NCBI GenBank assembly: GCA_017618195.1
Contig: JAFZUW010000010.1
Location: forward strand, 1 to 64,000
DNA length: 64,000 bases
Source of the DNA: Lachnospiraceae bacterium
GTDB lineage: Bacteria > Bacillota > Clostridia > Lachnospirales > Lachnospiraceae
Direction of reading: 5' to 3'
The notes under the pieces are model-generated. The model ran no database searches and was not told the DNA's origin. It saw only the letters and a list, made by a program, of their open reading frames with translations. Positions 2,123 through 15,547 of this stretch are shown in pieces. How positions within the stretch are numbered: position 1 is the stretch's first letter; every line of letters begins with the position of its first letter. A program made the position numbers and the translations under genes.

Positions 2123-2178
2123 AAAACCGCTGCAAAACCGTTATGACAAAGTCCGTCAACGGGGATGCAGCGGTTTTT
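2123..2178. terminator. Bidirectional terminator
   Basis: AAAACCGCTGCA (2123-2134) pairs with TGCAGCGGTTTT (2166-2177). An inner CCGTT/AACGG and GAC/GTC stem lies inside. T runs follow on both strands, so it can end the plus-strand gene at 1063 and the minus-strand cluster. It overlaps the stop codon of the peptidase gene. Confidence 0.8.
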
Positions 2179-2620
2179 ATGCTTTTTTCAGCAGTTTCTT
2201 TATGCGGCGCTTCAGGAATCCGACCGCGCGTTTTCGGAATATGCGAAGCGGCGCGAAGAATACGCGAAGCCTTGAATATATCTTATAGGGCAGTTCATCG
2301 GTCGTGTGCGCCTTCCTGTCCCGGTAGAAGCCGGTCATGATCCCGATGATGTCGTCATCGGTCGTTCCGTATTCACGAGCAACGCAGTTGTCGCCGAGGA
2401 TTACGTAATGTCCGTTTGGAAGAACTTTAATGATGCGGTGCAGAACATAATCGGAGCCGCGGTGATAAAGCACGACGTCGTATTTTCTGCAGCGCTCATC
2501 GGGTTTTTTATGACGCACCGTGAACAGGTCGCGCCCCTGGCGCAGAAGCGGCAGCATGCTGACCCCTTTGAAACGGTAGGTCATTTCCTCATTTGTCTCA
2601 AGAAAATCATCGTAAGTCAT
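2177..2620 (-). CDS. S24/S26-family (signal peptidase-like) peptidase
   Basis: A 147-residue protein with the signal peptidase I / LexA-type catalytic fold. FKGVSMLPLL near residues 18-27 carries the candidate nucleophilic Ser. The phrase around KYDVVLYHRG and YVLHRIIKV matches the strand bearing the general-base region, and YVILGDNC matches the S26 box D type. There is no clear N-terminal anchor, and the C terminus is strongly basic (KRRIKKLLKK), which may bind membrane or a partner. It is the last gene of the minus-strand cluster, 12 bases after the TraX-like gene. In this setting I infer that it cleaves the leader from the modified precursor peptide. A general signal peptidase role is the alternative but is less likely for so short a protein. 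Confidence 0.8.
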   Translation of the reverse strand: MTYDDFLETNEEMTYRFKGVSMLPLLRQGRDLFTVRHKKPDERCRKYDVVLYHRGSDYVLHRIIKVLPNGHYVILGDNCVAREYGTTDDDIIGIMTGFYRDRKAHTTDELPYKIYSRLRVFFAPLRIFRKRAVGFLKRRIKKLLKKA

Positions 2621-2632
2621 AAACCCTCGCAG

Positions 2633-3361
2633 TTACTTAAGCGCAAGCTGAATCAGGTAAATAATCGTCAGGTGGACGGGATAGAACAGATAAAACGCAT
2701 ATTTGAGCACGGGACCCTTTACGAAGCCCCGTTTTTTGTTATATAAGCCCATCAGGATGTAGGCCGGGAAGCTCGCAATCTGCAGGATGATGCAGCCGGC
2801 AAATGCGACGACGATCAGTTCCGTCCGAGCAACGTAAATCAAAAGGATGAACGTCACGCCGCCGATGCGGTAATCGGCATGGAAGAAATAGGTAAATACG
2901 AACAATGCGACCAGCAGCAGACCGCGCAGAACAATCCTGTCGCGGAAGTGCTCAAAGATGCAAAGCCCGAAAAAACCGAACAGCAGCGTAAAGAAAACGT
3001 TCTGTTTGCCGAAAGGAAACTGCCCGTGAACCAAATCAAACGGAATTTCCGAAATCAGTGCCGCAAGAAAGAGGCTCAGGCCGTAACGCAGGCGGTTCGA
3101 GGTATGCATAAACCCTTCGACAAGCAGGAAGCAAAACAGCGGAAAAGCCGTGCGTCCGATTGCGCGCATGATGAAATACGGAGTTACCGCGCGGGACGAG
3201 ACATGCGGAATGGAAAGAATGAAAAGTTTGGTTCCAAGCGCCGGTACATACTCCAACAGATGAGCGGCGGTATGGTCGATAGCCATCGTGATCACCGCAA
3301 TCAGCTTTAAGACGCTTCCGCTTAAAATTCGATTGTCAGACCTGCTTTCTTCTTCACTCAT
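2633..3361 (-). CDS. TraX-family polytopic membrane protein
   Basis: A 242-residue membrane protein with seven or more hydrophobic helices. The N-terminal phrase SGSVLKLIAVITMAIDHTAA is the characteristic opening of the TraX family, related to membrane acyltransferases; F-plasmid TraX acetylates the pilin N terminus. No conjugation genes are nearby, so the pilin role does not apply. The ATG overlaps the TGA of the upstream kinase gene (ATGA at 3358-3361), which implies translational coupling. It lies between a kinase and a peptidase in a cluster that starts with a small peptide gene. A role in acylating or exporting that peptide is possible but is only inferred. Confidence 0.75.
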   Translation of the reverse strand: MSEEESRSDNRILSGSVLKLIAVITMAIDHTAAHLLEYVPALGTKLFILSIPHVSSRAVTPYFIMRAIGRTAFPLFCFLLVEGFMHTSNRLRYGLSLFLAALISEIPFDLVHGQFPFGKQNVFFTLLFGFFGLCIFEHFRDRIVLRGLLLVALFVFTYFFHADYRIGGVTFILLIYVARTELIVVAFAGCIILQIASFPAYILMGLYNKKRGFVKGPVLKYAFYLFYPVHLTIIYLIQLALK

Positions 3362-4059
3362 TTCATGCCCTCATAGGAAACCGAAGCGGCTTCCGGATTC
3401 ATATTGCAGCCGAGCCGGTACAGAGAAACCTTCCCGGTCATGCGGATGATCAAGTCCATGGTTTTAGCAAGTTTTACCGGATCTTTGGGACGGTATGACT
3501 GCTGGAACAATACGGAAAATGCATCCTCCGCACTGATTTTTTCGATATGATTGAACGTATCCCTTGTCAGAAGGCAGATTGCCTTAACGGGAACGGACGT
3601 ATTGGTGCTCAGATGATGCTTTCCGTTCCAAGGAGAACCGTACACGCGTACTTCATCTTCCCTGATACGGATGAACGGCTTATCGTCGTTGATCATCGTC
3701 ACGCGGTCCCCGTACATATCCCGCCATAGACGGGCATGTGTGGATTTGCCGGTGCCGCTCAAAGCCGCAAACAGAAAGCCGACGCCGTCCATCGAAAGAG
3801 CGGAAGCATGGAACAGGATCGTATCGTAATCAATCAAAGCTTCGGAAAGCCTGCGCTGTACGGAAAGCGATTCGAGATAGGCAGGGGCGGAGTTGAATTC
3901 CGATAAGGCGAGTTCCGCGGAAATGTCGTCCGGCGTGGTTTCAATCCGGATCACTGCAGGCTCATCCGTCTCATATTCCTTTAAGGAAGCTAACGGAAGA
4001 GAATACTGGGTTGTTATCTCTACGGGCAATCCGCCCAGAAGATATCGCTTTGTAAACAT
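3358..4059 (-). CDS. HprK-like P-loop kinase
   Basis: A 233-residue protein of the HPr kinase / PEP-carboxykinase-like P-loop type. The Walker A motif is LSGTGKSTHARLW, the acidic metal-binding phrase is MINDDKPFI, and GSPWNGKHH follows as in this fold. It lacks the N-terminal domain of true HprK and no HPr gene is near. Relatives in lasso-peptide clusters phosphorylate the precursor on Ser, and others accompany radical SAM maturases. Here it sits 20 bases after the radical SAM gene and is coupled to the TraX-like gene by ATGA overlap. I infer that it modifies the 35-residue peptide, whose C-terminal RTESA offers Thr and Ser, or that it helps present the peptide to the maturase. Confidence 0.75.
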   Translation of the reverse strand: MFTKRYLLGGLPVEITTQYSLPLASLKEYETDEPAVIRIETTPDDISAELALSEFNSAPAYLESLSVQRRLSEALIDYDTILFHASALSMDGVGFLFAALSGTGKSTHARLWRDMYGDRVTMINDDKPFIRIREDEVRVYGSPWNGKHHLSTNTSVPVKAICLLTRDTFNHIEKISAEDAFSVLFQQSYRPKDPVKLAKTMDLIIRMTGKVSLYRLGCNMNPEAASVSYEGMK

Positions 4060-4079
4060 GTCTGATACTCCGGTGATAA

Positions 4080-5417
4080 TCAGTCCGCCGTACCGGTTCC
4101 CCGGCTGCGGAGTTTTTTATATTCCTGAAGAACGATCAGTTTCAGTTCGGCATTGGTCAGTGCCATCTGTTCTTCGTTGCAGGTAAAACGCTCGGGACAT
4201 TTCCGTAACCGTCTGCACATCGGATAATACGTGCAGGAAGAACAGAAATCATAATACGGTGCGGGAGCCTTCCAGGCAGCAACGGCCTGCTCATCCCACA
4301 CGCCGTCCGCTATAGTGCCGATGAATTCGCTTTCCGAGTAGTGTTCGCATTTGCCGACATTCCCGTCGGGAGTGATCACCAAAGCGGAATCGGAATCCGC
4401 GATGCACGAGGACGTAAGGTCGCTTTTTTGAAGGGGAATGCCGTCCAGTCTGCCGTGCCCGGCGATCAGCGTCATCAGTTCGATGAGACCGGAGGTCAGC
4501 TTCCGGCGAGCCTCCTTTGATCGGACGGATATTTTGTTGCCTGCATACTCAAACAGCATGCGTGGGTAGATCAGGCAGTTTCTTTCTTCGGGTAGTTCCT
4601 TTAACAGAAACTTCGTCAGTTCAAACTGGTCTGCAAGATTCTCTTCGGATACGTTCAGCCGCACGGAAATCCGGATATTCTTCGAAAGAGCGGCTTTTAC
4701 GTTGTTCAGTACGGTCTGAAACGGATTCGGATCTGCGTGAATGTAATTCTTGATCCGGTTATAGACGGGTGCGGTTCCGTCAAATGTGATCTGCGCCTGT
4801 TTCAGATGCCACAGATCCGCAGCAGCCGAAAGGATCTCACCGCGCAGCAGGTAGCCGTTTGAGATGAGAACGGATTCATAAGGAATTCCGCGTTCGGAAA
4901 GGACGGAGCAGATCACGGAGATTACGGAGGAATTATATAAGGGCTCTCCCCCGAACCACCGAAGGACGATCTTGTTCCCGCCGGCATGGTCCGCAATGTA
5001 TGCGGCAATCTGACGGGCTGTATCTTCGGTCATCCGGACTCTTGCGCGCCCGAGTTCATAACAGTAATAACAGCGGGCGTTACAATCAAGCGTCGTCATG
5101 ATCGTATAGCATTGGGACCCGGAGGGTCTTTGAAATACCGGAAGCAGTTCCCGGAGCTGGGAAACGAGGCGGGACTCCTCTAAGGAATCCGGAACGAGAA
5201 AACGGTGTTGATACAGATAACCGCGAAAAGAATCCGTCTGCAGCAGCGAATCCGCTTCCCAAATCATTTCCTGCGTCAGGGAATTGTAAAACAGTTTCCC
5301 GCCGTCAACGGATTGTGAAACGGTATAGGCAGACAAATGAGAGCAATCGTCAGGATTGCCTTTTTGCGTGCCGAGAATTTTCAGAATCAGAGGATTACCG
5401 GGATAATAGGTATTCAT
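4080..5417 (-). CDS. Radical SAM/SPASM peptide maturase
   Basis: A 445-residue radical SAM enzyme. The cluster-binding motif CNARCYYC (CxxxCxxC) lies near residue 110, followed by RWFGGEPL, typical of peptide-modifying SPASM enzymes. The C-terminal third holds the SPASM cysteines: CIADSDSALVITPDGNVGKC, then FCSSCTYYPMC and further Cys. The first 100 residues probably form the precursor-recognition (RRE-like) region. I place the start at 5415-5417 (MNTYYPGN) because CCTC complementary to the ribosome lies at 5423-5426, and because the longer open frame runs through a terminator-like hairpin. It follows the 35-residue precursor gene on the same strand. Such enzymes make thioether, C-C or related crosslinks in RiPPs; which one here is unknown. 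Confidence 0.88.
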   Translation of the reverse strand: MNTYYPGNPLILKILGTQKGNPDDCSHLSAYTVSQSVDGGKLFYNSLTQEMIWEADSLLQTDSFRGYLYQHRFLVPDSLEESRLVSQLRELLPVFQRPSGSQCYTIMTTLDCNARCYYCYELGRARVRMTEDTARQIAAYIADHAGGNKIVLRWFGGEPLYNSSVISVICSVLSERGIPYESVLISNGYLLRGEILSAAADLWHLKQAQITFDGTAPVYNRIKNYIHADPNPFQTVLNNVKAALSKNIRISVRLNVSEENLADQFELTKFLLKELPEERNCLIYPRMLFEYAGNKISVRSKEARRKLTSGLIELMTLIAGHGRLDGIPLQKSDLTSSCIADSDSALVITPDGNVGKCEHYSESEFIGTIADGVWDEQAVAAWKAPAPYYDFCSSCTYYPMCRRLRKCPERFTCNEEQMALTNAELKLIVLQEYKKLRSRGTGTAD

Positions 5418-5430
5418 AAAAGCCTCATGG

Positions 5431-5459
5431 AAAAAGGGCACGGAAAACCCGTGCCCTTT
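5431..5459 (-). terminator. Hairpin attenuator between precursor and maturase genes
   Basis: On the minus strand AAAGGGCACGG and CCGTGCCCTTT form a perfect 11-bp stem with a 5-base loop, followed by a T run. It lies 25 bases after the precursor stop codon and ends 14 bases before the maturase start. Partial termination here would give more precursor than enzyme, as is common in RiPP operons. Confidence 0.8.
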
Positions 5460-5483
5460 ATAATTCATATAATAATTGAAAGA

Positions 5484-5591
5484 TTAAGCACTTTCTGTAC
5501 GTCCGCAGTTATAATTTCCGCCACTTTCCGTGATGACGTCAGCGTCTGCGACAAGCACAACCTCAACCTCAACCGCTTCAAAAGCTTCCAT
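5484..5591 (-). CDS. Putative RiPP precursor peptide, 35 residues
   Basis: A short gene read from ATG 5589-5591 to TAA 5484-5486. Its ribosome binding site AGGAGGG (5597-5603) is perfect and 5 bases away. The peptide opens MEAFEAVEVEVVLVADADV, an acidic, valine-rich stretch, then ITESGGNYNCGRTESA. The xDVITxSG phrase is, from memory, common at the leader/core border of small peptides encoded beside radical SAM or HprK-like genes. The core candidate after GG contains one Cys, two Asn, one Tyr and an Arg; there is no Lys in the whole peptide. A good promoter lies directly upstream and the attenuator directly downstream. The function of the product (signal, bacteriocin or redox peptide) is unknown. 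Confidence 0.8.
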   Translation of the reverse strand: MEAFEAVEVEVVLVADADVITESGGNYNCGRTESA

Positions 5592-5638
5592 ATAATCCCT
5601 CCTGTAAAAGTGAGTCCATACTACAACTGTCTAACAAT

Positions 5639-5667
5639 AATAAATCACATTTCGCCGACCGTGTCAA
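5639..5667 (-). promoter_or_regulatory. Promoter of the peptide cluster
   Basis: Minus strand: TTGACA (5662-5667), 17 bases, TTTATT (5639-5644). The -35 box begins only 10 bases beyond the stop codon of the gene at 5677, with no terminator between, so some read-through from that gene is possible. Confidence 0.65.
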
Positions 5668-7223: not shown

Positions 7224-9224
7224 ATGGATTTTTGTGTACATATCGGATTCGGAGCAGACTGGGTTTTACAGAAGCAGCAGGAACATGATCTGCCGGTCGT
7301 AAAGATCAAGGAGGCGCTTCTGAAGCAGTTCGGCGAGCAGGCGGAAGTGACGAAACAGAGCCTGATTGAAATTGCCGTTGTATTGAAGGGCGTTGCCGAC
7401 GAGAAGGACGAGGCGGTCCGGATCGGATTTGACGCCGTAGCAAAGGAATATCCCGAGCTAGCGGAAGACGCCCATGGCGCGGAGGATGACGGACTTGTGA
7501 TCTGTTCGGGCGACGTATGTGCCGTCTGGGCGGTGGATTGTGACGAAGAAGGAAAGGAATCCCCTTCCGTGACGACGCAGAACCTGATTCAGGCGCTTCA
7601 CGGCTGGGATGAGTATAAGCAGATCTGCTGGGAGATGGTGGACATTGCACCGCAGGTCAGAAAACACGGTACTTACGAGAGCTTTCTGTTTCAGAATTAT
7701 CTGTTCTCGGTAAACGACGGATGGGGGCTTTCCACGGCGCTCGGATATATGGCGAGGCTGATGGAGGAACTCGGACTGATCACATTTGCCGGCAATAAAA
7801 AGCCGGTGGAGATACGTCTTTCGGTCAAATCCGAACCCGGCCGCTACACGTTTGCGGAGGCTTTTGACATCCTGCGCGGCGACGACGAAAAGCAGCGCAT
7901 GATCTGTTTTGATATCAGTGAATTCATGGATACCTCGAAGGAGGACGAGCTCAAGCAGTTTCTGAAGGATCTCGTGTCTTTGGAATCCAACTACATTTTT
8001 GCGTTCCGGATCCCGTATATCGAGCCGGAATCGTTAAAGCATATGAAGGATACGCTTTCCGACATCCTTTACGTCCGCACGATCAGCGTGCCTCCGGCTG
8101 GAGATACGGAGCTGTGGGAGTGCGCACGCGAGAGCCTTGAAAAGTACGGATTTGAGCTTTCGGAAGCGACAAAGAACACGTTTTTCGCCCGCTTAAGCAA
8201 AGAAAAGAGCGACGGACGCTTCTACGGCATGCAGACGGTCCGGAAACTGGTGTGCGAGATCATATGGCTCAAACATAAGGCGGACGCGTGTCTTTATGAC
8301 GACAGCGAAGGCCGTGCCGAGCCGTCGCAGGTTATTTCCGCCGAAGACATCGAAGGTCTTTGCGACGGGCTTGACGATTGCAGGAAGAAGGGTCTTGACG
8401 AGCTTTCCGAAATGATCGGAATGGAAGGGATCCGCGAACGGATCGTGGAGATCGTGTCGCAGGTGAAGCTCGCGATGGCCAACGACAATATGGATAAGCC
8501 CTGTCTTCATATGCGGTTCGTCGGTGCGCCCGGAACCGGTAAAACGACGGTTGCGAGACTGGTCGGCAAGATCTTCGCGGAAGAGGGAATCCTCCGGAAC
8601 GGTTATTTCTTTGAACATACGGCCAGGGACCTGTGCGGCGAATACATCGGCCAGACGGCTCCCAAGACGGCCGCGATATGCCGCGACGCATACGGATCGG
8701 TACTCTTTATTGATGAAGCATATGCGTTGTATGCAGGCGACGACCGCGCCAACGATTACGGCCGGGAAGCCCTTACGACGCTCGTTTCGGAGATGGAGAA
8801 CCACCGGACCGACATGGTTGTCATTATGGCAGGCTATAAGGATGACATGAACAAGCTGATGGAAGGAAATGCGGGACTCCGCAGCCGGATGCCGTTCATG
8901 CTTGAGTTCAAGAGCTACACGAAGGAGCAGCTACTTGAGATCTTCCTTCTCATGGCAAGAAAGCATTTCCGCTGCGACGATTCGCTTGTCAAAGCGGCGC
9001 AGGAGTTCTTTGAGAAGCTGGATCCGGCGTACATGAATTCGATGGATTTCGCGAACGCGAGATTTGTCCGGAACCTGTATGAGCGGACCTGGTCCAAAGC
9101 TGCCGTCCGGATGCAGATTTCGGGGGCAAAGGAGATCGTTCTGACCGGCGAAGACCTGACGGTTGCAGCCGCGGACCGCGAGTTCTCGGAACGCCTCATG
9201 ATGAAAAAGAGTATCGGATTTTAA
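7224..9224 (+). CDS. CbbX/SpoVK-like AAA+ ATPase
   Basis: A 666-residue protein. The last 270 residues are an AAA+ module of the CbbX/SpoVK type: GLDELSEMIGMEGIRERI opens it, Walker A is GAPGTGKTTVARL near residue 433, Walker B is VLFIDEAYAL near 495, the YGREALTTLVSEME helix carries sensor residues, and GLRSRMPF holds the probable arginine finger. These proteins act as hexameric remodelling ATPases in the cytoplasm. The first 400 residues resemble nothing I know and are acidic, with no membrane segment; they may recognise the target. I chose ATG 7224, with GGAG at 7211-7214; the frame extends upstream to a TTG at 7179, inside the promoter. It stands alone between its own promoter and terminator. 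The target is unknown. Confidence 0.8.
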   Translation: MDFCVHIGFGADWVLQKQQEHDLPVVKIKEALLKQFGEQAEVTKQSLIEIAVVLKGVADEKDEAVRIGFDAVAKEYPELAEDAHGAEDDGLVICSGDVCAVWAVDCDEEGKESPSVTTQNLIQALHGWDEYKQICWEMVDIAPQVRKHGTYESFLFQNYLFSVNDGWGLSTALGYMARLMEELGLITFAGNKKPVEIRLSVKSEPGRYTFAEAFDILRGDDEKQRMICFDISEFMDTSKEDELKQFLKDLVSLESNYIFAFRIPYIEPESLKHMKDTLSDILYVRTISVPPAGDTELWECARESLEKYGFELSEATKNTFFARLSKEKSDGRFYGMQTVRKLVCEIIWLKHKADACLYDDSEGRAEPSQVISAEDIEGLCDGLDDCRKKGLDELSEMIGMEGIRERIVEIVSQVKLAMANDNMDKPCLHMRFVGAPGTGKTTVARLVGKIFAEEGILRNGYFFEHTARDLCGEYIGQTAPKTAAICRDAYGSVLFIDEAYALYAGDDRANDYGREALTTLVSEMENHRTDMVVIMAGYKDDMNKLMEGNAGLRSRMPFMLEFKSYTKEQLLEIFLLMARKHFRCDDSLVKAAQEFFEKLDPAYMNSMDFANARFVRNLYERTWSKAAVRMQISGAKEIVLTGEDLTVAAADREFSERLMMKKSIGF

Positions 9225-9238
9225 GGAAAATGATCCTT

Positions 9239-9296
9239 TGCGGGGTTCGGTTTTCGGAATCGCCGGGTGCGGTTCCGGCCGTTATCCCGCATTTTT
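9239..9296 (+). terminator. Terminator of the AAA+ gene
   Basis: TGCGGG (9239-9244) pairs with CCCGCA (9286-9291), with an inner CGGAA/TTCCG stem, followed by a T5 run. Confidence 0.6.
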
Positions 9297-9396
9297 ATAT
9301 CGAAAAGATGTATTATCTTTACTTTTTGATGGTAAAAATTTCCTTTGTTGAAATTTTACAACAATGTAAAAATCGTGCTTGAAGAAGAACGCAATC

Positions 9397-9451
9397 CCCG
9401 CCCTCTGCACCCCCTGAGAGACGGTCAAAACGGTGCAAAAGGCGGGTTTTT
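9397..9451 (+). terminator. Orphan terminator-like hairpin
   Basis: CCCGCC (9397-9402) and GCACC (9407-9411) pair in order with GGTGC (9432-9436) and GGCGGG (9441-9446), and T5 follows. The AAA+ gene already has a terminator 100 bases earlier, so this may end a separate small RNA. Confidence 0.5.
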
Positions 9452-9638
9452 GTCATATTTAAGGCGAGTTTTTGCTCAAAAACGGGTGTCTGACAGTGAT
9501 TCACATGCCTCCGGGGGTCCCTCCGGAAAGCCCTCAGAAAATATACGAATTGGGCAATTTTACCATTAATACCAATTGACTACTAACTATTTTGCCCGAT
9601 TTTTTGTCGAAATGTTCCAAAAAGAATGATTTTTTATA

Positions 9639-9667
9639 TTGACAAAAGGGTCGCATTTGTCTAAAAT
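9639..9667 (+). promoter_or_regulatory. Promoter of the sugar importer operon
   Basis: TTGACA (9639-9644), 17 bases, TAAAAT (9662-9667), giving a leader of about 75 bases before GTG 9747. Confidence 0.75.
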
Positions 9668-9746
9668 GTAGCTTGTTTGGGAAAAAGTATGTAATATTTT
9701 TACCTTTATGTTGACACTCGGAACAAGATTGCGGAGGTAAAGTGCT

Positions 9747-9860
9747 GTGAAAGGATTCTTCCGAAACATAGTAAAGCACAGAGCGCATGTCGTTATGGCG
9801 CTGGTGAAAGGATTCTTCCGAAACATCTGGAAACACAGAGCGCATGTGGTTATGGCATTG
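9747..9860 (+). repeat. 57-bp tandem duplication at the permease start
   Basis: Units 9747-9803 and 9804-9860 match at 49 of 57 bases. Three of the changes fall in one codon (GTA to TGG); most others are silent. The reading frame is kept, so the protein carries the motif twice. Confidence 0.9.
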
Positions 9861-10721
9861 CCGGTGTTCCTGCTGCTGTTTTTCATCATGTATGTGCCGA
9901 TGAGCGGTTTGCTTCTGGCATTTAAAGACAGTAAGGACCTTATGGAGCGCGGGCTGTACGGCGCAAGGTACAACAATTTCGAGAACTTCCGGTTCATTAT
10001 CCAGTCCAAGACAATCTTCATCCGAATGCTTCGAAACACGTTTAAGTACTATGTGATCTTCACGGCGATCGGTACGCTTTTGAACGTTACGATTGCAATC
10101 GCAATCGATCAGTTCATCTTTAAGAGAGTCGGTAAGACGATGCAGACGCTGATGATCATCCCCGTATTCATTTCGTATGCGGCGGTACAGTTCATCGTGG
10201 AAGCCTTCATCAGCAAGGACCTCGGCATCATCAACCGTCTTCTCGGAACGTCAACCGGGTTCTACAGTGAGAGCAAATATTGGCCGACCATCCTGACGCT
10301 CACAAAGATTTGGAAGGATACCGGATACGGATCGGTACTTTACATGTCCGTCCTTGCCGGAATCGACTCCGAGCTTTATGAGGCCGCCGAGATCGACGGC
10401 GCCGGCCGTTTCCGCAGAATCTGGCATATCACGCTTCCGAGCCTGATTCCGATGATCACCGTAATGCTTCTGCTTTCGGTCGGAAACATTATGAAATCCG
10501 ATACCGGTCTTTTCTATCAGGTTACCCGTAACGGCGGAGCGATCAAAGAAACCACGGAGGTTATCGATTCCTACATCCTCGGTCAGATCAAGAGCGCCGG
10601 AATCAACTCTTTCGGATATACGGCAGCCTCGTCCCTGTTCCAGTCCGTCGTCGGGCTGCTGATGATGTTATTCGCCAACTTCACGGTTCGAAAGATTGAA
10701 CCGGAAAATGCGTTGTTCTAG
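9747..10721 (+). CDS. Sugar ABC permease, LplB/YtcP type, with duplicated N terminus
   Basis: A 324-residue inner-membrane permease of the CUT1 sugar family, LplB-like. Six or so membrane helices are visible, together with the EAAEIDGAGRFRRIWHITLPSL loop region that contacts the ATPase. The first 38 residues are a tandem repeat: KGFFRNI-x-x-KHRAHVVMAL occurs twice, encoded by 57-base units at 9747 and 9804. The first GTG (9747) has GGAGG at 9733-9737 and correct spacing; the second GTG has none, so translation should start at the first copy. Normal relatives carry one such stretch before the first helix. The second permease follows 15 bases later and the binding lipoprotein after that. No ATPase gene is nearby, as usual for systems served by a shared MsmX-like ATPase. 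Confidence 0.87.
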   Translation: MKGFFRNIVKHRAHVVMALVKGFFRNIWKHRAHVVMALPVFLLLFFIMYVPMSGLLLAFKDSKDLMERGLYGARYNNFENFRFIIQSKTIFIRMLRNTFKYYVIFTAIGTLLNVTIAIAIDQFIFKRVGKTMQTLMIIPVFISYAAVQFIVEAFISKDLGIINRLLGTSTGFYSESKYWPTILTLTKIWKDTGYGSVLYMSVLAGIDSELYEAAEIDGAGRFRRIWHITLPSLIPMITVMLLLSVGNIMKSDTGLFYQVTRNGGAIKETTEVIDSYILGQIKSAGINSFGYTAASSLFQSVVGLLMMLFANFTVRKIEPENALF

Positions 10722-11761: not shown

Positions 11762-13216
11762 ATGAACAGTCTCAAAAAAGTATTGGCTGTTGCGCTCTGC
11801 GCAATGATGGTTCTCGCTCTTACGGCCTGCGGAAACAAGGACAACGGCGAAGTTACCATCAAACTCACCCGCGCTTCGTTCAATGTTGTTCCGGATTCCT
11901 CACAGGTAAAGAAAGTTGAAGATAAGATCAACAGTTATCTGAAGGAAAAAGGTAAGTCCTACAAGGTAGAGATCACCGAGATCGCTGCCGATGAGTATGT
12001 TGATAAGGCTAAGCTTAAACTTACCAATAAGGAAATCAACCTTCTCTGGACCGCATCCTGGGAGTCCGGTATCGGCACGAACGACCTTGTTCCCGCTAAT
12101 TCCGTAAAGGATATTACCAAGCTCCTTGAGGGCACCGCTCTTTACAACTCCATGGACAAGGGTCAGTGGGAAGCTACGAAGTATAACGGAAAGAACTACT
12201 TCATCCCTGTTTACAAGGATAACGTAGAAGGTTACGACCTTATGTTCCGTGATGCTGCTCTTGGTTCTTTCAATCCTGCAAATGTTAAGACGCTTGCAGA
12301 CCTTGAGCCCCTTCTTAAGGCAGCTAAGGATGCCGGTATCAGCCATCCTTTCCTTACCCAGAAGACTCCTATGTTCTATCGTTTCTACATTGACAAGTAT
12401 GATTTCTTCACTGCAGACTCCGCTTCCAACTGGGTTTCCATTAAGAGAGACACCAACGAAGTTATCTGCACGATCGACGAGCCTGAGTACGCTGAGTTCT
12501 GTAAGCTGATGGGCAAGTGGGCGGAAGCCGGCTACATCAACGAGAGCGAAGCTACCAAGACGACCGACGAGAACATGACGCAGTCCCAGAACTGGGCAGT
12601 TTCATGGTGGACCGACGTTCCGGTTAATGCCGAGGCATCCAGCCGTTACGGCCAGCCTGTAACTCTTCAGGCTTATACGGACAGATGGGCTCATTCCACT
12701 TCCGCTCTTGGTTCCTGCTACTGCATTACCGCTAACACGAACGATGAGACCGCTAAGGCCTGCATTGATTTCATGGGTCTTCTTTACACCGACAGCAAGC
12801 TTGCTGACATCTACACCTTCGGTATTGAAGGCGAGGACTTCACTTATGAAGGAAATAAGGTTAAAAAGACCGATACCGCTAAGTACAACCACGGCATGTG
12901 GGAGTCCGCTTCCGCTACCGTTGTTACCCCCGACATCAGCGAGCCCGACAACAAGGCTGACCTTTACAAGACCTTCAACGGTTCTGCTCAGACTTCCTGC
13001 GCAGCAGGTTTCCGTTTCGACATGACCAAGGTTCAGGCTCAGTACACCGCATGTAAGGCTGTATTCGATGAGTACGGTTTCGTTCTTGAGAACGGCGGCG
13101 TTAAGGAATCTGAAGTTGACGCTAAGATCGCAGCTTACAAGAAGGCTTTGAAGGAAGCAGGTCTTGATGAAGTTATCGCAGAGTTCAAAGCTCAGTATGA
13201 CGCTTTCAAGAAATAA
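11762..13216 (+). CDS. Extracellular sugar-binding lipoprotein (LplA-like)
   Basis: A 484-residue solute-binding lipoprotein. MNSLKKVLAVALCAMMVLAL leads into LTACGN, a lipobox whose Cys would be lipid-modified and anchored outside the membrane. The remainder is a large two-lobed binding protein of the extracellular solute-binding family 1 type, long as in LplA relatives, with a Lys-rich C terminus. Codon choice shifts toward a narrow set (CTT, GCT, GGT, AAG), which suggests higher expression than neighbouring genes; binding proteins are commonly made in excess over permeases. It lies 71 bases after the second permease, with GGGAGG before ATG 11762, and is followed by a strong terminator. The ligand is not identifiable. 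Confidence 0.88.
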   Translation: MNSLKKVLAVALCAMMVLALTACGNKDNGEVTIKLTRASFNVVPDSSQVKKVEDKINSYLKEKGKSYKVEITEIAADEYVDKAKLKLTNKEINLLWTASWESGIGTNDLVPANSVKDITKLLEGTALYNSMDKGQWEATKYNGKNYFIPVYKDNVEGYDLMFRDAALGSFNPANVKTLADLEPLLKAAKDAGISHPFLTQKTPMFYRFYIDKYDFFTADSASNWVSIKRDTNEVICTIDEPEYAEFCKLMGKWAEAGYINESEATKTTDENMTQSQNWAVSWWTDVPVNAEASSRYGQPVTLQAYTDRWAHSTSALGSCYCITANTNDETAKACIDFMGLLYTDSKLADIYTFGIEGEDFTYEGNKVKKTDTAKYNHGMWESASATVVTPDISEPDNKADLYKTFNGSAQTSCAAGFRFDMTKVQAQYTACKAVFDEYGFVLENGGVKESEVDAKIAAYKKALKEAGLDEVIAEFKAQYDAFKK

Positions 13217-13255
13217 ATTGTGATCGTAATTGATTCGATAAAGAGGATAATAAAG

Positions 13256-13282
13256 CCGGAAGGGTTCGCCCTTCCGGTTTTT
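13256..13282 (+). terminator. Terminator of the sugar importer operon
   Basis: CCGGAAGGG, loop TTCG, CCCTTCCGG, then T5: a perfect 9-bp stem with a stable tetraloop. Confidence 0.92.
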
Positions 13283-13289
13283 ATATTAT

Positions 13290-13318
13290 TTGCCTTTTCC
13301 ACGGAAAAGCGGTATAAT
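13290..13318 (+). promoter_or_regulatory. Promoter of the LCP gene
   Basis: TTGCCT (13290-13295), 17 bases, consensus TATAAT (13313-13318), about 100 bases before the start codon. Confidence 0.65.
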
Positions 13319-13423
13319 AACCCAAAGAATTGCGGAACAGAATCGCGTAATGCAATGTTCCGTCCGCTTAATGCGGGAAGCGGCGCGCCGATAATCGGAG
13401 GGCGCGCTGAGAGAGGGATGGAG

Positions 13424-15547
13424 ATGGATATAAAAAAGAAGAGAGCCGGATTTGCCGGCGGGCTGATCTATATGCATGCCGCGCAGATGGTTCTTCTGTT
13501 AGGGATCATGCTGACAAAGGATATCAGCCTGAAGAAGGGATTCCTTCCCGAGGCTGCCGGCCAGCTTGTTGCCCTTGTCGTATTGATGTTTCTTACCATC
13601 GGATATTATCTGTTCGCGGGTAAGAAGGAACGTAAGAATGAAGCCACGCTGTTCTGGCTGCTCGGCGGTGCCGAAGCGGTTTACCAGATCGCGGACTTTA
13701 TCCTGTTTTCCAAGAAAGTAAAGCCCGGGCAGGAGGAAATCTGGTTCTGGGCTGCGGGCATCGCGGTGCTGGTCGTATTTACCGCACTGCAGGTTTTGTC
13801 AGACAAAGGGACATGGAAGTTCCTCATGACGATCATCGTACCGTTCCGTGCGGTTATCTCCGCACTCGGACTGATCCGGTATAAGAACGAATTCCTTCAT
13901 CCGAAGGCGATGATCCCGATGTTTGTTCTGATGGCGGTAATGCTTGTCGTATTTGTCTGGACCGGCGAGAAGTTCAGCCTGGTCACCGGGCTCGTTCTCG
14001 GCGCGGCGCAGATCGTCGCATCGATCTTTACGGTCACGAAGCTTTCCAAATCGTCAAGCATCATGCAGGCGCTGACCGGATTTATAAAAGGGAAGTCCGA
14101 AAAGCAGCTTCTGTTCGTGTTCTGGATCATCGCGGCATCCGCTTTGGCGGTAACCGCCGCACTTCAGTTTATCAAGCACTATGAGATCGTCGGGAAAATG
14201 CTCAGCATCACGGCAATCTGCCTGATGATTCTTCTCTATTACGCGATCGGCGGAATCGAAGCGGAAGTCCGCGAGTCGTTCGGCGTTGATGTTGCCGACG
14301 CGGCGAAGAATGCGGTATACGGGCTTTTCGTCCGGACGGACGATCCGGCGCAGAAGCTGTCGGATGCGGTTTCTTACCGGATTGCGGTTCACGGCGAGCA
14401 TGACGAATCCGAAGTATCGGAGGCGGTCGGCAAATTAAACGAAATGGCCGGCATTTCCTTAAAAATCGTTACGCTTGATAACCTTTCCGCCGTAGGCTCT
14501 GCATTTTACAACCGCGAGGTGGATGCCGTTTTCATCGAACGTTCGACGGCCACCTATATTGATTCGGACTTTGAGACCAGGGAGATCGCATGGGTATTCT
14601 CGGAAGAAACCCGAGTGATCGCCGATGTCAGCGTTGCGTTGAAGGAGAATCAGCAGGGCAACCCGGGCACGGATCCGGATCCGATTGCAAATCCGACCGA
14701 AGAGCCGGTCAAGACTCCTGCGAAGGAAGACCTGACGAAAACACCGTTCGTCGTTTACGTAAGCGGAATCGACGTTTACGGAGACATTAAGACGAAGAGC
14801 CGGAGCGACGTGAACGTTTTGGTTGCGGTCAATCCTAATACAAAGGAGATTGCGCTTGTTACGACGCCTCGTGACGCTTATGTGGATATTCCCGGAAAGA
14901 CTTCGGAATACCGTGATAAGCTGACGCACGCCGGAAACTACGGCGTCCAGTATTCGATCTCCACATTGGAGAACCTGTACGGAATTAAAGTGGATTATTA
15001 TGTCCGTATCAACTTCTCGGGCGTTGAGAAGATCGTTAACCTGCTCGGCGGGGTGGATGTCGTTTCGCTTTACAATTTCACGGCCCGTCACGGCCCGTAC
15101 GAAATCAAAAAGGGCGTCAATCATATGAACGGCGCGCAGGCGGTATCGTTCGCGAGAGAACGTATTACGGTTCCGGGCGGCGACGTTACGAGAGGAAAGC
15201 ACCACATTGAGCTGATCAAGGGAATCTTCGCAAAGATCACGACGACCGCGGTACTGACCAATTACCAGAGTCTTTTGGATGCGGCTTCGGATAACTTCCA
15301 GACGGATGTTTCGACCAACCAGCTTGCTTCGCTTGCGGCAATGCAGCTTTCGGACGGGGCGGAGTGGTATTTTACGTCATACGCTTCTTACGGAGACGGC
15401 GCCACGAAGATGTGCAACTCCTACCGCGGCGGCGAGTTGTGGGTATGTCTTTTGAAGAAGGATTCCGTGAAACGTGCGGCAGGACTGATCAACCGCGTTC
15501 TGAACGGCGAGCACATTCCGGATGACGAGTACAAATACGAACAGTAA
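13424..15547 (+). CDS. LytR-CpsA-Psr (LCP) family protein with long membrane region
   Basis: A 707-residue membrane protein. About the first 280 residues hold eight or more hydrophobic helices. A middle region follows, then a Pro/Thr-rich linker (PTEEPVKTPAKEDLTKTP), and an LCP catalytic domain from about residue 435 to 610. The LCP signs are VTTPRDAYVDIPG, the KLTHAGNYG stretch, the INFSGVEKIVNLLGGVDV segment and FARERITVPGGDVTRGKHH, with the Arg residues that bind polyprenyl phosphate. Such enzymes attach teichoic acids or capsule polymers to peptidoglycan on the outer face of the membrane. The multi-helix N-terminal half is much longer than the single helix of classic LytR. ATG 13424 is favoured by GAGAGGG six bases upstream; ATG 13418 is possible. 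Confidence 0.85.
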   Translation: MDIKKKRAGFAGGLIYMHAAQMVLLLGIMLTKDISLKKGFLPEAAGQLVALVVLMFLTIGYYLFAGKKERKNEATLFWLLGGAEAVYQIADFILFSKKVKPGQEEIWFWAAGIAVLVVFTALQVLSDKGTWKFLMTIIVPFRAVISALGLIRYKNEFLHPKAMIPMFVLMAVMLVVFVWTGEKFSLVTGLVLGAAQIVASIFTVTKLSKSSSIMQALTGFIKGKSEKQLLFVFWIIAASALAVTAALQFIKHYEIVGKMLSITAICLMILLYYAIGGIEAEVRESFGVDVADAAKNAVYGLFVRTDDPAQKLSDAVSYRIAVHGEHDESEVSEAVGKLNEMAGISLKIVTLDNLSAVGSAFYNREVDAVFIERSTATYIDSDFETREIAWVFSEETRVIADVSVALKENQQGNPGTDPDPIANPTEEPVKTPAKEDLTKTPFVVYVSGIDVYGDIKTKSRSDVNVLVAVNPNTKEIALVTTPRDAYVDIPGKTSEYRDKLTHAGNYGVQYSISTLENLYGIKVDYYVRINFSGVEKIVNLLGGVDVVSLYNFTARHGPYEIKKGVNHMNGAQAVSFARERITVPGGDVTRGKHHIELIKGIFAKITTTAVLTNYQSLLDAASDNFQTDVSTNQLASLAAMQLSDGAEWYFTSYASYGDGATKMCNSYRGGELWVCLLKKDSVKRAAGLINRVLNGEHIPDDEYKYEQ

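Follow-up and report, generated by a model that had tools for sequence, protein, structure and literature searches.

The window, that is, the whole 64,000-nucleotide stretch of Lachnospiraceae DNA that was analysed, contains a cluster of five genes on the minus strand encoding a 35-residue peptide, a radical SAM/SPASM enzyme, an HprK-like kinase, a TraX-family membrane protein and an S26/SipW-like peptidase (Table 1). A check of ORF coordinates and strand confirmed the five genes of the preliminary description, all in one direction and where they were first listed; the ATGA overlap that it reported joins the kinase and TraX genes, and the ribosome binding site ascribed to the peptide gene is present. 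The peptide gene had also been credited with its own promoter. A -35 element is found, but the -10 element is weak and a consensus scan listed nothing there; a separate promoter is plausible only. A tRNA-Lys (ttt) gene lies on the plus strand at 131–205, close to the start of the window.

Table 1. Features of the cluster and its surroundings in the window.
Feature	Position	Strand	Remarks
Secreted-protein gene, 438 aa	5677..6993	-	Signal peptide by home-made rule
Putative -35 element, TTGACA	5662..5667	-	Candidate promoter of peptide gene; from sequence
Weak -10 element, TTTATT	5644-5639	-	Candidate promoter of peptide gene; from sequence
Ribosome binding site, AGGAGG	5598..5603	-	From sequence
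Precursor peptide MEAFEAVEVEVVLVADADVITESGGNYNCGRTESA, 35 aa	5484..5591	-	Conserved Ser23, core Cys29
Intrinsic-terminator/attenuator-like hairpin and T-run, directly 3' of precursor	5433..5459	-	11 bp
Radical SAM/SPASM maturase, 445 aa	4080..5417 (ORF as listed 4080-5468)	-	Start revised (most likely position)
HprK-like (LppK-like) kinase	3358..4059	-	SGTGKST P-loop, NDDKP motif
TraX family membrane protein, probable acetyl/acyl transferase	2633..3361	-	PF05857, E = 2.8e-33
S26/SipW-like (LppS-like) peptidase	2177..2620	-	Ser21, His61 and Asp77 invariant, Asp88 nearly; acid is Asp77 or Asp88
Hairpin, then T-rich stretch, at operon end	2123..2177	-	

The radical SAM gene most likely starts at 5417 and not at 5468, because the first 17 codons of the listed ORF span the hairpin behind the precursor gene and the starts of its homologues align with 5417. 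The 51 bases ahead of this position contain part of the 11-bp hairpin with its T-run. Three relatives of the same genus (described below) also carry hairpins in the first 80–90 nt after the precursor, and the folding energies of the four post-precursor stretches, window included, range from -20.1 to -21.5 kcal/mol. A terminator-like hairpin lies within 100 nt behind 46 of 66 precursors, compared with 106 of 481 other genes.

Related loci and the precursor family

No relative came up when related loci were sought with the radical SAM protein, and an alignment of the kinase was therefore taken as the query. The best 80 of 551 relatives in the genome collection were kept, so the fractions given here describe the loci most like the window. 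Among these best 80 of 551, an S26 peptidase gene is present in 60, PqqD in 64, radical SAM in 13 and TraX in 6. In 59 of them S26 lies behind the kinase; 45 of these 59 have the set kinase–PqqD–S26. An ABC transporter gene begins no more than 400 bp behind S26 in 31 of the 59, and 32 have an NTP_transf_5-like gene at a distance of up to 4.5 kb. Pfam searches of example loci confirmed PqqD (E = 1.3e-14) and likewise the ABC and NTP_transf_5 assignments. The predicted gene order of these wider loci is the LppK-B-S-D-N order given for linear polyphosphorylated peptides (LPPs), described from the lppA-K-B-S-D-N genes of Paenibacillus alginolyticus (PMC13381572).

Radical SAM genes adjoin kinase/PqqD/S26 genes in other lineages too. 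In a phylum-wide search with the S26 peptidase, 9 of 398 genomes gave matches (threshold E ≤ 1e-8); further kinase/S26 loci came to light, some with a different radical SAM family. Three loci of other Bacillota (L268, L269 and L271, in G329, G415 and G498) combine PqqD, a different radical SAM protein, a Cys-bearing peptide, a kinase and S26, and in L268 and L269 a short peptide bears an LPP-like YxxP...FETxxS stretch.

HMM searches of 118 loci, the window included, identified 67 precursor ORFs in 56 loci and none in the other 62. A recognised precursor is absent from the fetched DNA of 43 of the 77 kinase loci L097–L173, to which contig ends contribute. The preliminary description had proposed a search with a short-ORF-aware tool; a family HMM trained on 20 peptides from 18 other kinase loci, with the window and its three relatives left out, recovered the window peptide among short ORFs at E = 8.7e-5, a match beyond chance. 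That the tiny ORF arose by chance beside an unrelated operon is highly improbable: ORFs of 35 aa are common, with 118 of at least 30 aa in the first 12 kb, but this one matches the family HMM, has a ribosome binding site and is followed by a terminator-like hairpin in four species.

The aligned precursors share a leader with the approximate consensus MExYExxExEVxxFxxEDVITTS, and in an alignment of 33 precursors the Ser column that corresponds to Ser23 of the window peptide reaches a conservation of 90% or more. Between the window and its three relatives the leaders are alike and the cores differ. Scanning 33 members against NCBIfam and Pfam gave stray matches only and no known precursor family. 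The core of the window peptide has the single Cys first reported, at position 29; the two phosphorylatable core residues singled out with it are less likely sites than the nearly invariant Ser23. By analogy, Ser23 is the best candidate phosphoacceptor, because this Ser is nearly invariant and its place matches core position 3 of LppA, where a phosphoserine has been proven (PMC13381572). The sequences DDNETEIQ and DNNETEIF close the cores of two other precursors (L118 8183-8302 and L158 5316-5426), NELP- or NETP-like stretches occur in several more, and DDNETDII stands directly behind the signal peptide of the secreted protein encoded upstream in the window.

The predicted enzymes and the core cysteine

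The radical SAM protein matches Radical_SAM (PF04055) above the Pfam cutoff, at E = 1.6e-11, and its SPASM match lies below the corresponding cutoff; seven C-terminal Cys are invariant in the alignment of its homologues. It reaches the NCBIfam cutoff of no named maturase, the best score being 125.8 of 525 bits. The model (pLDDT 81.6) has its best structural match in CteB (5wgg/5why; TM 0.61, r.m.s.d. 8.1 Å, the superposition comprising 473 alignment columns), followed by SuiB. The near full-length match to CteB, together with the strand–helix pattern, suggests an RRE-like N-terminus in the modelled enzyme.

A core Cys is closely associated with the presence of a radical SAM gene. Scored per locus, all 17 loci that have a radical SAM gene no more than 6 kb away contain it, vs 1 of the 39 other loci (Fisher test, p = 2e-13, uncorrected for kinship; such p-values overstate independence because the near-duplicates L128/L139, L146/L173 and L058/L059 are present). 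Scored per ORF, precursors with radical SAM comprise 20 with Cys and 3 Cys-less, and those without comprise 1 and 43, respectively. In L017, the Cys-bearing exception, a radical SAM gene stands just beyond this limit, at about 6.5 kb, and the Cys-less scores at radical SAM loci belong to two precursors of L119 and one of L173, in which a Cys pair precedes the cut. A second sample, chosen by peptide alone from other genera of the family, held 34 precursors in 31 loci, of which L228 and L233 are on contigs already sampled; radical SAM is nearby for 0 of the 34 and a core Cys is present in 0 of the 34. This sample agrees with the link, the positive side of which is beyond its reach. For experimenters the link is a guide to what to look for.

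The kinase has a family match below cutoff (HprK_rel_B, 2.5e-5). Its model (pLDDT 94.1) matches PEPCK and HprK structures, indicating a PEPCK/HprK fold, and its P-loop and NDDKP motif are conserved. The peptidase likewise has a sub-cutoff family match (sigpep_I_arch, 1.2e-5), and the residues listed for it in Table 1 were identified in an alignment of 20 peptidases. The TraX protein scores 116.1 bits against its Pfam family, where the gathering score is 25. Among families with the TmAT fold TraX is described as the most divergent, and acetylation of F-pilin requires the TraX of plasmid F (PMC12423673). Because of this fold and this acetylation role, it may be guessed that TraX transfers an acetyl or acyl group to the peptide.

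Conservation and secreted-protein neighbours

Twelve of 22 genomes of the genus contain the kinase, and PqqD is present in exactly those 12; 7 of the 22, the own genome included, contain a radical SAM relative with E ≤ 1e-40. All five components are found together in three further species (G303, G310 and G317), in the order secreted protein–radical SAM–peptide–kinase–TraX–S26, with the peptide gene after radical SAM and not before it as in the window. A related small peptide thus accompanies homologous radical SAM genes, as the preliminary description had supposed. Its other supposition, joint conservation of kinase, TraX and peptidase genes, withstood attempted refutation: five genomes of the genus (G000, which is the own genome, G303, G310, G317 and G305) have the three genes side by side. 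In G315 kinase–TraX stands at a contig end, and no radical SAM gene was found beside either this pair or the three genes of G305.

Identity between the window and the three relatives is 64–65% for the kinase, 50–61% for TraX, 67–92% for S26 and 35–36% for radical SAM. The genus is not resolved as a single group in the radical SAM tree. Across the family, radical SAM matches at E ≤ 1e-20 occur in 11 of 299 genomes, one of them the own genome; in the others identity does not exceed 38%.

The own genome encodes at least four further precursors, all Cys-less. Four of these, at E ≤ 0.01 on contigs C61 and C28, each lie directly behind a gene for a secreted protein of 958–1699 aa (L174, L175 and L176), with no maturase beside them. 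One of these secreted partners has a pAdhesive_15/choice-of-anchor A domain. The PqqD-type genes of the own genome are unlinked to the cluster (G000:C6:93584-93847 and C26:15721-15900), and PqqD is likewise away from the cluster in all six genomes of the TraX type, in 5 of which it stands next to the same gene of 455/456 aa (one copy truncated at a contig end). A further locus, L043 (G000:C26:6000-24000), contains a second HprK-like kinase, a PqqD-like ORF and, on the opposite strand, a candidate precursor-like peptide (gene coordinates 8628-9449, 9473-9904 and 9982-10116), with an ABC transporter gene at 12222-14003.

These observations bear on whether the operon combines two systems, in which precursor and radical SAM enzyme would form a sactipeptide/ranthipeptide-like pair while kinase, TraX and S26 would serve mainly the Cys-less precursors elsewhere in the genome. 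The kinase–TraX–S26 and kinase–TraX sets of G305 and G315 (the latter at a contig end) with no adjacent radical SAM gene, the four Cys-less precursors that lack a neighbouring maturase and the far greater divergence of radical SAM compared with the kinase all fit such an arrangement. It is nevertheless unlikely, as all five genes occur together in four species, the conserved Ser is retained in Cys-bearing precursors, and radical SAM also stands beside kinase/PqqD/S26 in other lineages.

The secreted-protein gene of the window is in the same direction as the cluster and just upstream, ending 86 bp from the precursor gene. Homologues of its product are encoded just upstream of radical SAM in the three relatives; no convincing Pfam or NCBIfam family was found for it. 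In the wider family 30 of 67 precursors have a gene of at least 700 aa that ends between -20 and 60 bp ahead of them, vs 3 of 567 other genes; in the second sample the figures are 7 of 34 vs 4 of 308. At the same loci, a gene with a signal peptide, as called by a home-made heuristic, precedes 25 of 67 precursors at a distance of at most 60 bp, vs 31 of 567 other genes (second sample, 10 of 31 vs 21 of 295). The window gene falls outside the 60-bp limit and encodes only 438 aa. This repeated placement behind secreted-protein genes is a testable clue to the biological role of the peptides.

SipW is the dedicated signal peptidase of TasA. By the same token, the peptide could assist the upstream secreted protein as an export tag, chaperone or regulator, with S26 as the dedicated signal peptidase of that protein. 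Both enrichments, in both samples, favour this reading, but it appears distinctly unlikely: by eye the window S26 protein has no N-terminal membrane anchor, the secreted-protein gene of the window lies beyond the 60-bp limit, and LppS has been shown to cut a RiPP leader (PMC13381572). A partnership of another kind is also conceivable, albeit doubtful, in which LPP-type peptides of gut Clostridia would be partners of the upstream secreted surface protein; the peptide, phosphorylated, N-acylated and in some lineages radical-SAM-modified, might be loaded onto the protein or tune it, one enzyme set serving many pairs in the genome.

Proposed pathway and relation to known systems

The preferred reading, to which a probability of about 0.7 is given, is that the operon makes a linear phosphorylated LPP-type RiPP with a radical-SAM modification at its Cys. 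That it is a RiPP cluster, as originally proposed, is supported by the similar leader, the variable core and the conserved neighbours. Direct support comes from the genes and their order, their conservation, the precursor family, the association of Cys with radical SAM and the predicted folds.

The cluster probably works like the LPP pathway with an additional radical SAM step and TraX step. An RRE would bind the leader (about residues 1–20); this could be the RRE-like N-terminal part of the radical SAM enzyme or else the PqqD protein, whose gene is unlinked. The radical SAM/SPASM enzyme would modify the core via Cys29, most likely by a thioether link, which is proposed because the enzyme resembles CteB. 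The HprK-like kinase would phosphorylate Ser23, the S26/SipW-like peptidase would remove the leader shortly ahead of this residue, and TraX may add an acetyl or acyl cap to the N-terminus set free by cleavage or to the product after export. For RRE use, phosphorylation and cleavage in this pathway the model is the published LPP biochemistry (PMC13381572).

Several known systems share parts of this arrangement. With CteB, the SCIFF thioether maturase, and other SPASM maturases (TIGR04463, PapB) the window enzyme has in common a CxxxCxxC motif, C-terminal SPASM-like Cys, a modelled RRE-like N-terminus and a Cys-bearing substrate; it differs in falling far below the NCBIfam cutoffs, in the single core Cys and in the precursor family. 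A radical SAM and SPASM-like maturase beside a Cys-bearing precursor is also a feature of sactipeptide/ranthipeptide systems. Paeninodin-like lasso peptides share the HprK-like kinase, a PqqD-type RRE (here in relatives) and a related leader motif, but no macrolactam synthetase or B2 peptidase was found among eight proteins scanned around the cluster. The TraX protein belongs to the same Pfam family as TraX of plasmid F, the known substrate of which, in contrast, is F-pilin (PMC12423673).

The likeness to LPPs comprises the HprK-like kinase (P-loop, NDDKP and PEPCK/HprK fold), the SipW-like S26 leader peptidase with its Ser, His and Asp (HMM scores below cutoff), and a short precursor whose leader resembles theirs and whose nearly invariant Ser sits near the position where cleavage is expected. 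There are also differences. The window cluster adds radical SAM and TraX; it has no discrete RRE gene within 2177–5591, PqqD being unlinked, and lacks the MsbA-like exporter and the NTP transferase. In place of the motif YxxPxVLxHQxIxFETxxS the window peptide has FEAV (F4xxV7) for YxxP and no FET cleavage site, and the spacing from Tyr/Phe to Ser is 19, not 18. Because the cluster RRE, exporter, NTP transferase and exact leader motif are missing, the cluster, judged from its sequence, is not a full LPP member by strict features. Matches of the Clostridial RREs to LppB (9x8z, E = 0.13) are weaker than those to lasso RREs (6jx3, 2e-5; 9x90, 0.0015), and the host, a gut-type Clostridia bacterium, belongs to a Lachnospiraceae-type genus, whereas LPPs were described from Bacilli.

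The preliminary description regarded the combination as belonging to no described class. This needs to be revised for the kinase and S26 peptidase, which are core LPP genes (PMC13381572), with A-K-B-S-D-N-like sets occurring in related Clostridia; it holds for TraX and radical SAM, which are unusual. The terms 'radical SAM' and 'TraX' are absent from the main text of that paper, and neither radical SAM with LPP nor TraX with RiPP was found as a combination in the open-access literature searched. The locus would extend LPP-type RiPPs from the Bacilli studied in 2026 to Clostridia and add to these pathways two enzyme types that the main text of the 2026 paper does not name (PMC13381572). Overall, the locus looks like a radical-SAM/TraX variant of an LPP-type RiPP cluster, resembling an unusual branch of the family described in 2026.
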